Positions 38,645 to 47,421 of a stretch of DNA of 64,000 nt are shown piece after piece. The translations under genes were made by a program, and so were the position numbers. The first letter of the stretch is position 1. The number at the start of each line of letters is the position of its first letter. The stretch is from Chryseobacterium taklimakanense (GTDB lineage: Bacteria > Bacteroidota > Bacteroidia > Flavobacteriales > Weeksellaceae), in the NCBI RefSeq assembly GCF_900187185.1, contig NZ_LT906465.1, forward strand, positions 2,418,001-2,482,000. Direction: 5' to 3'. The notes below the pieces were generated by a model that was not told the DNA's origin, ran no database searches, and saw only the letters and a list, made by a program, of their open reading frames with translations.

Positions 38645-39415
38645 ATGCCGAATCAGAAAATATTATACGTTACCACCGAGATGTATCCTTATCAGGAAGA
38701 GAGCAGCATGGCGGCAACGGTGAACAGGATGGCGCTGAAGATGCACCATGAGGGAAATGATGTGAGAGTGTTTATGCCGCGGTTTGGGCTGATAAGTGAA
38801 AGAAAATTTCAGCTTCACGAGGTCATCAGGCTTTCCGGGATGAATATCATTATTAATGATCTTGATCAGCCGCTGATCATAAAGGTGGCATCTCTGCCGG
38901 GTGAGCGTTTGCAGGTTTATTTTATTGATAATGAAGAATATTTCCAGCGCAAATCCTATTATACAGACGAGGAGGGAAAAGGTTTTGAAGACAATGGCGA
39001 GCGTGCCGTCTTCTTTGCCAGAGGCGTGATAGAAACCATCAAGAAACTGAACTGGGTGCCCGACGTGATCCACATCAACGGTTGGATGTCTTCACTCATT
39101 CCAATATACCTGAAGACCTTCTACAAGAACGATTATTATTTTAAAGATACTAAAATTGTAATTTCCGTTTACAATGAGGAAAATGTGCAGCTTACCGATA
39201 CGGTAAAGGAAGTGCTGCAGTTTGACAATATTTCTGAGCTTAAATCGTTAGAATCCCCAAACTCTGAACAGTTTGTGACCGACAGTCTGAATTTTGCTGA
39301 TGTAGTGGTAAAAGGCGATGAGTTCCTGGAAGGTAATATTGATCAATCCTACGAAAAGGCCAAAGTACAAAAAGCGGACTATGTGGAGCCTGACGCTATC
39401 GAAAAAGTTTATTAA
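38645..39415 (+). CDS. starch/glycogen synthase N-terminal-domain-like protein
   Basis: This 257-residue protein (ATG at 38645) aligns with only the N-terminal GT5 domain of glycogen synthases: KILYVTTEMYPY, NRMALKMHHEGNDVRVFMPRFG and PDVIHINGWMSSLIPIYLK. The C-terminal GT-B domain is missing. The ADP-glucose-binding K-x-G-G motif of GlgA is replaced by E18-E19-S20-S21. A catalytic glycogen synthase role is therefore unlikely; a regulatory or structural role is possible. The gene is followed after 16 bp by the DUF4270 gene and then glmS, an apparent operon. Confidence 0.8.
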   Translation: MPNQKILYVTTEMYPYQEESSMAATVNRMALKMHHEGNDVRVFMPRFGLISERKFQLHEVIRLSGMNIIINDLDQPLIIKVASLPGERLQVYFIDNEEYFQRKSYYTDEEGKGFEDNGERAVFFARGVIETIKKLNWVPDVIHINGWMSSLIPIYLKTFYKNDYYFKDTKIVISVYNEENVQLTDTVKEVLQFDNISELKSLESPNSEQFVTDSLNFADVVVKGDEFLEGNIDQSYEKAKVQKADYVEPDAIEKVY

Positions 39416-42983: not shown

Positions 42984-44381
42984 ATGAGAAGAACCTTCCT
43001 TTTAGTAATGTCGGCCTTTGTAATTGTCTCCTGTTCGAAGGGAAGCAGATCAGCAGGCAAACCTGGCTCACGGGGTGAGCTTATAGCAGCTGAAAAGTCA
43101 AAGTCATTTTTAGCAGAAAGACCTTATGGTATGGTGGCTATTCCTGGCGGTTCATTTGTGATGGGAAATGCAGATCAGGATATGACTGATACTCCTGAAA
43201 AAGCGATGTTGAAAACAGTAACTGTGTCTTCATTCTTTATGGACGAGACCGAGGTTACCAATGGGGAATATCGCGTGTTTGTAAAATATGTGAGAGACTC
43301 GATCGCCAGAACTCTTCTTGCAGAAGCAGCCGGAGACGGTAGCGGGACCGGAATTGGAAATTACGCCTACCTTTCAAAAAAATCAGGGAACGCAACCCCA
43401 TATGATGAATTTATTGAATCACACGGCGGCCGTGACGGATATGATCAGTCAAAAAGACTGGACTGGAGCGAACCATTATACTGGAATACTTCACAATATC
43501 CGGACGTACAGTATGCTGAGATTATGGAATCGATGTATATCCCTAAAGCTGAACGAATCAATAACGAAAGAGTTATTGATGCAAGGAAGCTGAGATATGC
43601 GTATGAGTGGGAAGATATTGAAAGTGCAGTGAAAAACAGGGAAAGAAATATTTCTTACCTAAAAAAAGAAAGTATCGCAGTATATCCTGATACGACGGTG
43701 TGGTTGCGAGACTTCAATTATGCATATAACGAACCGCTTTTCAACCAGTATTTTTGGCATTCTGCATACAGCAATTATCCAGTCGTGGGCGTGACCTGGG
43801 ATCAGGCGAGAGCTTACTGCAATTTCAAGTCGAAATTAAAATCAGACTATAACGAAAGTCTTAAAAAGAAAAAACAAAAACCTATGAACTTCCGCCTTCC
43901 AACGGAAGCAGAATGGGAATATGCTGCTAAAGGTGGACGTGCAAATGCTACATATCCATGGGGCGGTCCTTACCTGGTTGATGACAGAGGTTGCTATCTG
44001 GCCAACTTTAAACCGAAAAGAGGTAATTATATTGAGGACGAAAAGAAAGGAACTTATATGTATACGGCGCCGGTGAAAAAATTTGGAAGAAACGATTTCG
44101 GGCTCTATGATATGGCGGGTAATGTTGCTGAATGGACCGAGTCTCCGTACAACAACGCTACTTATCAGTTTTCCTCAACCTTAAACCCATCTCTGTCCAA
44201 TCAGGCGTATAGAGAAGTAAAAAAATCCGTAAGAGGGGGCTCGTGGAAAGATGTAGGCTACTTGCTTATGACCGGAAACCGCGATTGGGAAAGAAAAGAT
44301 TCTGCCCGCAGTTATATTGGGTTCAGAACTGTACAGGACATCCCGGAAGGCTCTGCTAAATTCAAAAAAAGAACCAACTAA
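42984..44381 (+). CDS. gldK: gliding motility/type IX secretion lipoprotein GldK
   Basis: GldK (PorK) is an outer-membrane lipoprotein that forms a periplasmic ring with GldN. The lipobox gives C17 (VIVSCSK). The body is a formylglycine-generating-enzyme (SUMF1) fold with IPGGSFVMGN, GVTWDQARAYCNF, FRLPTEAEWEYAA, LYDMAGNVAEWTE, SVRGGSWKD and IGFRTV. The 465-residue length matches flavobacterial GldK. It begins the gldK-L-M-N cluster, with gaps of 30, 45 and 28 bp between genes, surely one transcript. Confidence 0.95.
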   Translation: MRRTFLLVMSAFVIVSCSKGSRSAGKPGSRGELIAAEKSKSFLAERPYGMVAIPGGSFVMGNADQDMTDTPEKAMLKTVTVSSFFMDETEVTNGEYRVFVKYVRDSIARTLLAEAAGDGSGTGIGNYAYLSKKSGNATPYDEFIESHGGRDGYDQSKRLDWSEPLYWNTSQYPDVQYAEIMESMYIPKAERINNERVIDARKLRYAYEWEDIESAVKNRERNISYLKKESIAVYPDTTVWLRDFNYAYNEPLFNQYFWHSAYSNYPVVGVTWDQARAYCNFKSKLKSDYNESLKKKKQKPMNFRLPTEAEWEYAAKGGRANATYPWGGPYLVDDRGCYLANFKPKRGNYIEDEKKGTYMYTAPVKKFGRNDFGLYDMAGNVAEWTESPYNNATYQFSSTLNPSLSNQAYREVKKSVRGGSWKDVGYLLMTGNRDWERKDSARSYIGFRTVQDIPEGSAKFKKRTN

Positions 44382-44411: not shown

Positions 44412-45092
44412 ATGTTTAAAAACAGAGCTGCAATTTCAAATTTTGTCTATTCATTTTTTGCTGCGATCGTAATCCTTGGGGCATTATTCAAAATGCTGCA
44501 CATTAGCATAGGGCCTATTTCCGGTAACCTGATCTTGGGAATCGGTCTTGGGGCAGAGGTTTTAGTATTCCTTTATATGGCGTTTTTTCCGGACCACGAT
44601 TCCACCACACAGTATGCGTGGGAAAATGTTTATCCGGAACTTTTGGATAATGAAGCGCAACCAAAGGCAAGAACAGTAAGCAAGCTCGCAGAATCTTCGG
44701 ACCTTGATGTTTCACTTTCTGACAAGCTCGATAAAATGTTGGCTGATGCGAAACTTGATGTGAATTTGTTCGAAAGATTAAAGTCCGGGATCGATAAGTT
44801 TTCAGATTCTGTAGAACAAATAAACCAGACGGTAGATGTGTCTTCCTCTACACGTAAATACAATGATCAGCTTACACTGGCTGCAAGTCATCTTGAAAGT
44901 ATGAACGCCTTATACGCACTTCAGCTCGAGCATGGTAAACAGCAGTCTGAATATCACACCAGATACGTGGCTGACCTTCAGAAATCTGCGGAACATTCTG
45001 CTAAATTCAATGAAGAATTAACAGGACTTACATCTAACTTAAATAACCTGAACAGAGTTTACGGCGGTATGCTTAATGCGATGAAGTCATAA
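44412..45092 (+). CDS. gldL: type IX secretion motor protein GldL
   Basis: GldL (PorL) forms, with GldM, the proton-driven inner-membrane motor of type IX secretion and gliding. Of 226 residues, two membrane helices lie near the N-terminus (about 13-30 and 38-58). The second contains a glutamate (LGAEVLVFLYMAFFP) in the position of the conserved membrane glutamate that couples proton flow. A cytoplasmic helical tail, probably coiled-coil, makes up the rest. It directly precedes gldM. Confidence 0.95.
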   Translation: MFKNRAAISNFVYSFFAAIVILGALFKMLHISIGPISGNLILGIGLGAEVLVFLYMAFFPDHDSTTQYAWENVYPELLDNEAQPKARTVSKLAESSDLDVSLSDKLDKMLADAKLDVNLFERLKSGIDKFSDSVEQINQTVDVSSSTRKYNDQLTLAASHLESMNALYALQLEHGKQQSEYHTRYVADLQKSAEHSAKFNEELTGLTSNLNNLNRVYGGMLNAMKS

Positions 45093-45137: not shown

Positions 45138-46460
45138 ATGGCACAAGGAAAACAGACACCGCGTCAGAAGATGATCAACCTGATGTATCTGGTTTTCATT
45201 GCGATGCTCGCAATGCAGATCGACCAGGAAATTGTAAGGTCATTCTACGATACGCAGGTTTCATTAAGTGAAACGCTTTCGCTGACAAATTCAAAAAACG
45301 AAGTATTTGAAAAAAACTTAGCAGAGAAAGCACAGAATTCACCCGACGATCAGGTATCTTATCAGAATTATCTTGAACTGAAAGGTTATAGTGATGATTT
45401 GGTGAATGATATCAATCGGATCAAAAATACAATGGTAACGCAGTCAGGCTTCAAATTTAATGAAGAAAATTTTGACTATAACAGTTTGAACAACGCTGAG
45501 CATTCCACTAAATTGTTTTTTCAGGGGGGAGACGAAAACAAACCTTCCGGGGAAGCAAAATCCCTGATCAATAAAATAAACGCATTACGCGGATTTATTA
45601 TACAAAAATTTGAAGGGGACGAAAAGTTTTCCACTGTAGTATCCAGAGCGAAACAGAACCTGATTACTGAATATCCTCAGAAAAAGAATGGCAAAAGCTG
45701 GTTGATGCATAAGTTTTATAATCAGCCATTGGTTGCAGCTCTTTCTAATTTGGAGATTTTAGCAACTGAAGTAAGAAACATCCAGTCGGATGCTTTATCA
45801 ATTTATTTGCAGGGGAAAAGTATCATTGCAGATCCAAATTCAACCTTGATAACGCAGACTCCGACTACTTCGCCACCGATGACTTCAAATTCTTCACATA
45901 CGGAAGATTTTACACAGCAGAAAACTCAGGACTACACTGCGACGATTACTTCGGGCACGGTTCTTTACCAGGGTTTTCCTAACCCTGTGAATATTGACGG
46001 TGCTACATCATCAACGTCTATTTCTGCAACTGGAGCCACAGTTTCCGGAGGTGGTGGCAAGTGGACAGTAACGCCGGGACCTGTAGATGAAGTAACGCTG
46101 ACTGTTGGCGGGAAATCCACGAAGTATATGGTTAAGAAACTACCGCCGGTAGTAGCTACGGTTCGTGGTAAAAGTGCAGTTGCTATGCCGGCGAGCTCAA
46201 TTAAAAACCAGACTGTAAGCGTGGATATGCCAGGATTCGTATATCCGGTAAGCTTTACAGTAACCGGATTTAAAGTGAAAGTACCGGGCAAACCTACAGC
46301 TTTTGTAAGCGGAAACTCGCTCAGCGAAGTTGGCCACCTGTTTACCAACCTTCGTGCGGGCGATAAAGTAACAATTCTTGATATTGAAGTTACTGCGACA
46401 GGAATGGGGAACAGTATACCTAAAACCCCAAGCAACGTGACAATTAATGTCAGCAACTAG
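45138..46460 (+). CDS. gldM: type IX secretion motor protein GldM, shortened
   Basis: GldM (PorM) is the periplasm-spanning partner of GldL. One membrane helix (about residues 14-30) follows KQTPRQKMINLMYL. The helical first periplasmic domain (about 36-224) ends at SDALSIYLQ. An S/T/P/Q-rich linker of about 45 residues (226-270) follows, then a domain with SGTVLYQGFPNPV and GGGGKWTVTPGP (about 271-335) and a C-terminal domain (about 336-440). Known GldM/PorM proteins have about 515 residues and four periplasmic domains. The second appears to be replaced here by the linker, making this protein about 75 residues short. The ends are complete and the frame is intact. Confidence 0.93.
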   Translation: MAQGKQTPRQKMINLMYLVFIAMLAMQIDQEIVRSFYDTQVSLSETLSLTNSKNEVFEKNLAEKAQNSPDDQVSYQNYLELKGYSDDLVNDINRIKNTMVTQSGFKFNEENFDYNSLNNAEHSTKLFFQGGDENKPSGEAKSLINKINALRGFIIQKFEGDEKFSTVVSRAKQNLITEYPQKKNGKSWLMHKFYNQPLVAALSNLEILATEVRNIQSDALSIYLQGKSIIADPNSTLITQTPTTSPPMTSNSSHTEDFTQQKTQDYTATITSGTVLYQGFPNPVNIDGATSSTSISATGATVSGGGGKWTVTPGPVDEVTLTVGGKSTKYMVKKLPPVVATVRGKSAVAMPASSIKNQTVSVDMPGFVYPVSFTVTGFKVKVPGKPTAFVSGNSLSEVGHLFTNLRAGDKVTILDIEVTATGMGNSIPKTPSNVTINVSN

Positions 46461-46488: not shown

Positions 46489-47421
46489 ATGAAAAAGTTA
46501 TTGTGCAGTTTATTTTTAGCAGCGGTAGGATTTTCGCAGGCACAGTCCATTCTGAATGCCAAATCGCCTGAAGAATTCCGCCAGCTTCGCGAAGAAAATA
46601 AAATAAAAAAAGGGGACAGCATCGTATCAAATGAGACTGTTCCGTTACCGTACGGTTATATTGATGAAAAAGATATTCTGAAGAGTATGGTGGTGTGGGA
46701 AATTATTGACCTGAATGATAAGCTGAACCAGCCACTTTACCATAACTCTGACGGTTTGGTATCACAGAATAAATCACTTTATCAGATTCTTATTGATGGA
46801 ATAAAGTCCGGGAAGATCGAGGAAGTGTATGATGACGAAATGTTTACGACCAGATTGGGTATGGATGAGATCCAGAAGCGTATCAGCAAACTGGTAATCT
46901 CTGATGACTTAATTGATAAGATTAATTCAGGTGCAACAGTAACCGAAGAAGACAAAAAAGCTGGTACGGACGTGTACGAAACCAAATCTGAGAACGTAAA
47001 ACTTCTTAAGATTAAAGGGATGTGGTATATAGACAGGCGTGATTCCCAGATGAAATACCGTTTGCTGGGCATTGCGGCGATGGGCAAGGATCCGCAAACC
47101 ATGGGAGTCATTGGCGGTGACGGTGAGCTGGTAGATGCAGGAGATGATTATATTGACCTGTTCTGGGTTTTTTATCCTAATGTCCGCCCGCTGCTTGTAA
47201 ACTCAGTGGTGTTCAACAACAAGAACCTTTCTTCAGATATTACTTATGATGACATTCTAAATGCCAGAAGATTTTCATCTGTGATTTATAAATCTGACAA
47301 TGGTTTGGGAAATGGTGTTATAAAAGACTATATTCCACGTAATGCTGATGAGCAGATGGAGGAGCACGAACGTATTAAAGCGCAGATTCTGCAGATGGAA
47401 AATGACATGTGGAATTATTAG
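46489..47421 (+). CDS. gldN: type IX secretion protein GldN
   Basis: GldN (PorN) is a periplasmic protein that forms the ring complex with GldK and contacts GldM. I chose the ATG at 46489, which gives a signal peptide (MKKLLCSLFLAAVGFSQAQ) and 310 residues. An upstream in-frame ATG overlaps the gldM stop region. Family landmarks are DEKDILKSMVVWEIIDLNDKLN, YHNSDGLVSQNKSLYQ, WYIDRRDSQMKYRLLGIA and DYIDLFWVFYPNVRPLL. It ends the gldKLMN cluster and is followed by a terminator. Confidence 0.94.
   Translation: MKKLLCSLFLAAVGFSQAQSILNAKSPEEFRQLREENKIKKGDSIVSNETVPLPYGYIDEKDILKSMVVWEIIDLNDKLNQPLYHNSDGLVSQNKSLYQILIDGIKSGKIEEVYDDEMFTTRLGMDEIQKRISKLVISDDLIDKINSGATVTEEDKKAGTDVYETKSENVKLLKIKGMWYIDRRDSQMKYRLLGIAAMGKDPQTMGVIGGDGELVDAGDDYIDLFWVFYPNVRPLLVNSVVFNNKNLSSDITYDDILNARRFSSVIYKSDNGLGNGVIKDYIPRNADEQMEEHERIKAQILQMENDMWNY

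Follow-up and report, generated by a model that had tools for sequence, protein, structure and literature searches.

The closest described counterparts of the protein analyzed here are the GldM of Flavobacterium johnsoniae (6ey4, 6ys8) and the PorM of P. gingivalis (7cmg, 6ey5, 6ey6). In solved GldM the domain boundaries fall at residues 32–232 (D1), 233–320 (D2), 321–405 (D3) and 406–513 (D4), with D2 and D3 domain-swapped in real dimers; the F. johnsoniae protein is rigid at D1-D2 and P. gingivalis PorM, which also possesses D2, shows a 45-degree bend at D2-D3 (PMC5790014). From the solved structures a rigid bent crank has been proposed (PMC9389320), and the shaft is taken in models to be rigid, bent and 18 nm long (PMC5790014, PMC9389320), with GldM length described as one narrow peak (PMC9389320). 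A conserved glutamate in GldL TMH2 is critical in F. johnsoniae, and the periplasmic part of GldM touches GldK and GldN (PMC8986121). The literature searched yielded no D2-less or shortened GldM.

Evaluating a stretch of 64,000 nucleotides from Chryseobacterium taklimakanense (the window; contig NZ_LT906465.1, positions 2,418,001 to 2,482,000), we found a GldM ortholog that has lost D2. Its gene (window positions 45138–46460, + strand; 440 aa, the length given in a preliminary description made from the letters alone) is single copy in a 2.76-Mb, one-contig genome that is 99.97% complete. Pfam placed GldM_1st at residues 31–225, GldM_3rd at 274–327 and GldM_4th at 339–438 with no match of the protein to GldM_2nd (PF21601), which bears out the earlier claim of a missing second periplasmic domain. 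Searching the whole genome and that of a second carrier, G286, likewise revealed no PF21601 match in either, ruling out that D2 is encoded by a separate gene. The protein shares with F. johnsoniae GldM the transmembrane helix, D1 and its fold, D3, D4 and the position in gldKLMN, and with PorM the family and, D2 aside, the domain order; in place of the F. johnsoniae D2 the window protein has a 47-residue segment predicted to be a disordered tether, and its D3 is smaller.

The transmembrane helix and D1 (residues 1–226; 45138–45815, + strand) match PF12081 at 100.9 bits against a cut-off of 25 (E 1.2e-28), and the N-terminal helix RQKMINLMYLVFIAMLA and Arg9, which occupy invariant or nearly invariant columns of a 60-sequence alignment, are present. 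The putative tether (residues 227–273; 45816–45956, + strand) is 47 aa long with 62% S/T/P/Q/N, much as the S/T/P/Q-rich linker after the first domain had been described; in Kaistella pullorum GldM, D2 and its connector fill this position with about 108 residues. Beyond it, D3 (residues 274–338; 45957–46151, + strand) is trimmed, as its PF21602 match is partial and passes marginally (25.7 bits against 25.2), its hairpin is about 9 residues shorter in the alignment than in full-length GldM, and the ADKM motif that is nearly invariant ahead of D3 is lost. D4 (residues 339–440; 46152–46457, + strand) matches PF12080, GldM_4th, at 56.5 bits against 24.6 (E 5.1e-15). Given homology and gene order the protein is a GldM ortholog, yet it lies outside the curated four-domain equivalog, scoring 171.8 bits against the TIGR03517 cut-off of 180 (NCBIfam). 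A comparison of 110 GldM proteins put the two short forms at 436 and 440 aa, with 508 for the next shortest and a median of 520.

Structure prediction (AlphaFold2 on the monomer with the 60-sequence alignment) modelled D1, D3 and D4 with good confidence, D1 at pLDDT about 80–97, and left residues 228–273 at a pLDDT of about 30, below 50 and with no secondary structure, such that the linker is predicted to be disordered. As a control, the K. pullorum GldM run as target with the same sequences gave strands across residues 244–325 at pLDDT about 66–82, a beta-rich D2, so the possibility raised earlier that the linker folds into a normal second domain did not hold up. The best Foldseek matches of the short GldM model were GldM/PorM entries exclusively, with D1 superposing on 6ys8 (TM(target) 0.84, 2.9 A) and 6ey5 and 6ey6 matching the C-terminal part. 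On the basis of the monomer prediction and composition, the dimer would possess a flexible joint. Given that the model is of a monomer and that D2 and D3 are swapped in solved dimers, the linker could become ordered when the protein dimerizes or binds a partner.

We assessed how rare this form is with three surveys of overlapping samples, covering 320 family, 335 order and 178 phylum genomes. GldM was found in 312 of the 320 family genomes and D2 in 307, the five without a D2 match being the window genome, G286, the incomplete G150 and G296, and G248. With a GldM frame of 535 aa, G248 does not qualify as a third short form, and its D2 has probably just diverged below threshold. In the order, D1 occurred in 276 of 335 genomes and D2 in 273, with the window genome, G286 and the small, 1.3-Mb G521 (D1 present, no D2 match) as the exceptions, and in the phylum D1 occurred in 44 of 178 and D2 in 43, the window alone being without it. 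With G521 set apart as ambiguous, D2 absence is confined to the window and G286 in these surveys, making the form extremely rare. The GldMs of K. pullorum, K. jeonii and Cloacibacterium, which share the operon and about 50% D1 identity with the window protein, unlike it all possess D2 and are about 520 aa long. Within the same family, seven near-complete genomes (G198–G202, genus code g10; G303 and G304, g28) lacked any GldM or GldN match, an apparent loss of the T9SS motor; G203, also of g10, has both proteins.

The rest of the locus is ordinary. Gene order gldK-gldL-gldM-gldN is kept, and the neighbours are of normal size, as previously noted: gldK (42984–44381, + strand; 465 aa, TIGR03525 541.7 bits against 350), gldL (44412–45092, + strand; 226 aa, TIGR03513 142 bits against 68.3, with Glu49 present in the alignment) and gldN (46489–47421, + strand, Met at 46489; 310 aa, TIGR03523). 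Directly 5′ of glmS and gldK, a lipoprotein at 39318–41012 matches BamH_fj at 147.5 bits, below the cut-off of 420. Full-length SprA is present in both short-form genomes (frames of 2353 and 2359 aa), porZ was found in the window, and T9SS cargo tails number 12 in the window genome and 45 in G286. SprA, PorZ, the cargo tails, GldL Glu49 and the selection described below together make a working T9SS very likely, and on the strength of the first three the short GldM is probably functional.

Comparing the second carrier, G286 (genus code g23), which is read as Kaistella, revealed that its short gldM had arrived together with the adjoining gldN. The short form of G286 is 78% identical to that of the window. 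The flanking G286 genes resemble those of K. pullorum, K. jeonii and Kaistella SH40-3 (glmS 91–94%, GldK 89–91%, GldL 88%), whereas its GldM shares only 44–47% (D1), 49–51% (D3) and 47–51% (D4) with these Kaistella against 72%, 96–97% and 86% with the window, and its GldN 64–66% against 86%. DNA identity between G286 and Kaistella drops over roughly the first 100 bases of gldM, a stretch whose transmembrane-helix codons are nearly identical across all lineages, and returns in the final 150 or so bases of gldN. The GldN of these Kaistella carries a roughly 50-residue low-complexity N-terminal extension that is missing from G286 GldN.

Phylogenies agreed with this pattern. The GldK+GldL tree placed G286 with Kaistella (100/99) and rejected a window+G286 clade (AU p 0.0002), while the GldN and GldM trees joined window and G286 (100/100) and rejected G286 with Kaistella (AU p 0.0001 for GldN, 2e-47 for GldM). 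Signature residues, defined as those that window and G286 have in common at positions where the other sequences conserve a different one, numbered 0 in glmS, GldK and GldL, 30 in GldM (6 in D1, 16 in D3, 8 in D4) and 7 in GldN. No second GldM or GldN was found in the G286 genome. From the identity pattern, the breakpoints, the trees and this lack of a second copy, it follows that the short gldM+gldN replaced the native pair in place; the breakpoints lie at the gldM start and gldN end, the trees reject vertical descent, and the pair now sits beside ordinary GldK and GldL. The donor may have been the lineage of the window or some further one, for which GC3 in G286 (36 for gldM and 43 for gldN against 28–33 in the flanks, with gldN high in other Kaistella too) is suggestive only. 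This joint transfer, the second carrier genome and the trimmed D3 go beyond the preliminary description.

Other variation at gldKLMN was seen across the family. The roughly 50-residue GldN extension follows the signal peptide in Kaistella and Cloacibacterium (L032, L035, L039, L042) and is missing in other genera, and two MAGs (L034, L047) possess a mid-protein GldN insert of about 90 residues with a K/T/A-rich stretch. In Chryseobacterium sp. legu1 (L038) and Kaistella BC_maxbin.025 (L041), GldK, GldL, GldM and GldN all cluster with Chryseobacterium, and legu1 is linked to a genome placed in the Kaistella genus code (G277) despite its Chryseobacterium-type gldKLMN. As these two cases possibly represent whole-operon exchange, gldKLMN recombination may be common in the family.

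The short form is under strong purifying selection. Between its two versions pS is 0.73–0.80, near saturation, with dN far below it at 0.19 in D1, 0.22 in the linker, 0.03 in D3, 0.11 in D4 and 0.10 in GldN, which rules out a pseudogene. The linker differs in length by 4 residues and ranges from 44 to 62% S/T/P/Q/N, with a core, ADPN.TL.T.TP...PPM.SNS.H.ED, recognisable in both species; to judge from the sequences, its conservation is about that of D1 and would exceed the needs of a pure spacer. Conservation of D3 was considered as proof of new function and set aside as weak, since its 97% identity lies at the edge of the range for ordinary pairs that have diverged to a similar degree (mean 79, sd 8.8, with one pair at 96.97).

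Seen against these data, two explanations deny that the short gene is a working part. Artifact, by which an assembly or gene-calling error deleted D2, had been named at the outset, together with full length in all close relatives, as what would refute the claim; nearly all relatives are full length, but a second species possesses the same architecture in a copy diverged to 78% identity and D2 lies nowhere else in either genome, so that G286 refutes assembly error and we give an error of any kind practically no weight. That gldM is decaying as the T9SS is being lost might be read from just 12 cargo tails here against 45 and 68 in two Kaistella, yet with dN far below near-saturated pS in all domains, an in-frame D2 loss, intact SprA, PorZ and gldK/L/N, and the same short form gained and retained by another genus, we judge decay highly improbable.

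The remaining two accept a working protein and dispute its mechanics. A thinner periplasm in these species, with the shaft cut to fit, would suit the loss of what is a spacer domain, and periplasm thickness has been suggested behind length variation in the analogous MotB (PMC9389320). In G286, however, an otherwise ordinary Kaistella locus, GldK and GldL included, had its normal gldM exchanged for the short one, so no prior general envelope change is needed, and about 47 extended residues could bridge the missing length; we regard this reading as unlikely. Somewhat better placed, and still the minority view, is a shorter rigid shaft in which linker segments are ordered in the dimer (as swapped strands or coil) or bound to GldN, peptidoglycan or another protein. 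The D2/D3 strand swap in solved dimers (PMC5790014) and the core retained in both species point this way, and a linker about as conserved as D1 (dN 0.22 against 0.19) keeps a shorter rigid dimer in play, but pLDDT of about 30 across the segment with no secondary structure, the 4-residue length variation and the 44–62% S/T/P/Q/N composition argue against it.

We therefore favor, as fairly probable, a functional GldM without D2 in which the rigid domain gave way to a pair of flexible tethers and in which short gldM+gldN formed a matched unit that was transferred to Kaistella, with the restriction of the form to only two lineages and the D1-like conservation of the linker counting against this explanation. 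The transmembrane helix and D1 would sit in or on the GldL pentamer as usual, two roughly 47-residue disordered tethers, one per dimer chain, would join D1 to D3-D4, and a trimmed, re-tuned D3 with a normal D4 would dock on GldN. If so, the short GldM would drive secretion with GldL power crossing the periplasm via a flexible, possibly twisting, two-stranded joint rather than a rigid four-domain shaft, either as torque from strands winding round each other under load or as force by pulling, an arrangement that the proposed rigid bent crank (PMC9389320) would not fit. We estimate the reach of a 47-residue chain at some 5–6 nm relaxed and about 16 nm stretched, where each of the four domains of an 18-nm shaft would account for about 4.5 nm, so distance could be kept while rigidity is lost. 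This also tempers one part of an initial reading that is in the main supported, the suggestion of a shaft one domain shorter: D2 is indeed missing, and shortening is less certain as the tether could bridge the D2 length. In Kaistella, homologous recombination would have swapped the native gldM-gldN for the short pair with the host's own gldK and gldL retained.

Extending this to the machine as a whole, no other new result argues as strongly as the gldMN transfer for a working short form and for GldM and GldN being matched. As short GldM and its GldN have taken the place of the usual pair in a second genus, the machine can apparently do without rigid D2, and since GldL and GldK of the ordinary type seem, from the transplant, to tolerate the short form, a constraint would lie between GldM D3-D4 and GldN. 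For MotB, ExbD and TolR, the axles of 5:2 motors (5:2 architecture, PMC9389320), a dimeric axle set in a pentamer and flexible in its periplasmic part is the accepted design; these proteins bind peptidoglycan or TonB/Pal partners, not GldN, and none of them appeared in our searches. More tentatively, and at slightly less than an even chance, T9SS power may be able to pass through a flexible two-stranded tether by twist or pull, with the rigid bent shaft of current rotary models non-essential, GldL and GldK swappable between genera, and GldM+GldN a matched pair. A natural D2 deletion bears on how force is transferred from the GldLM motor to the GldK/GldN layer. Moved to another genus beside ordinary GldL and GldK, this deletion offers a natural experiment on the need for rigidity, and the transplant points to GldM with GldN as the parts that must match.
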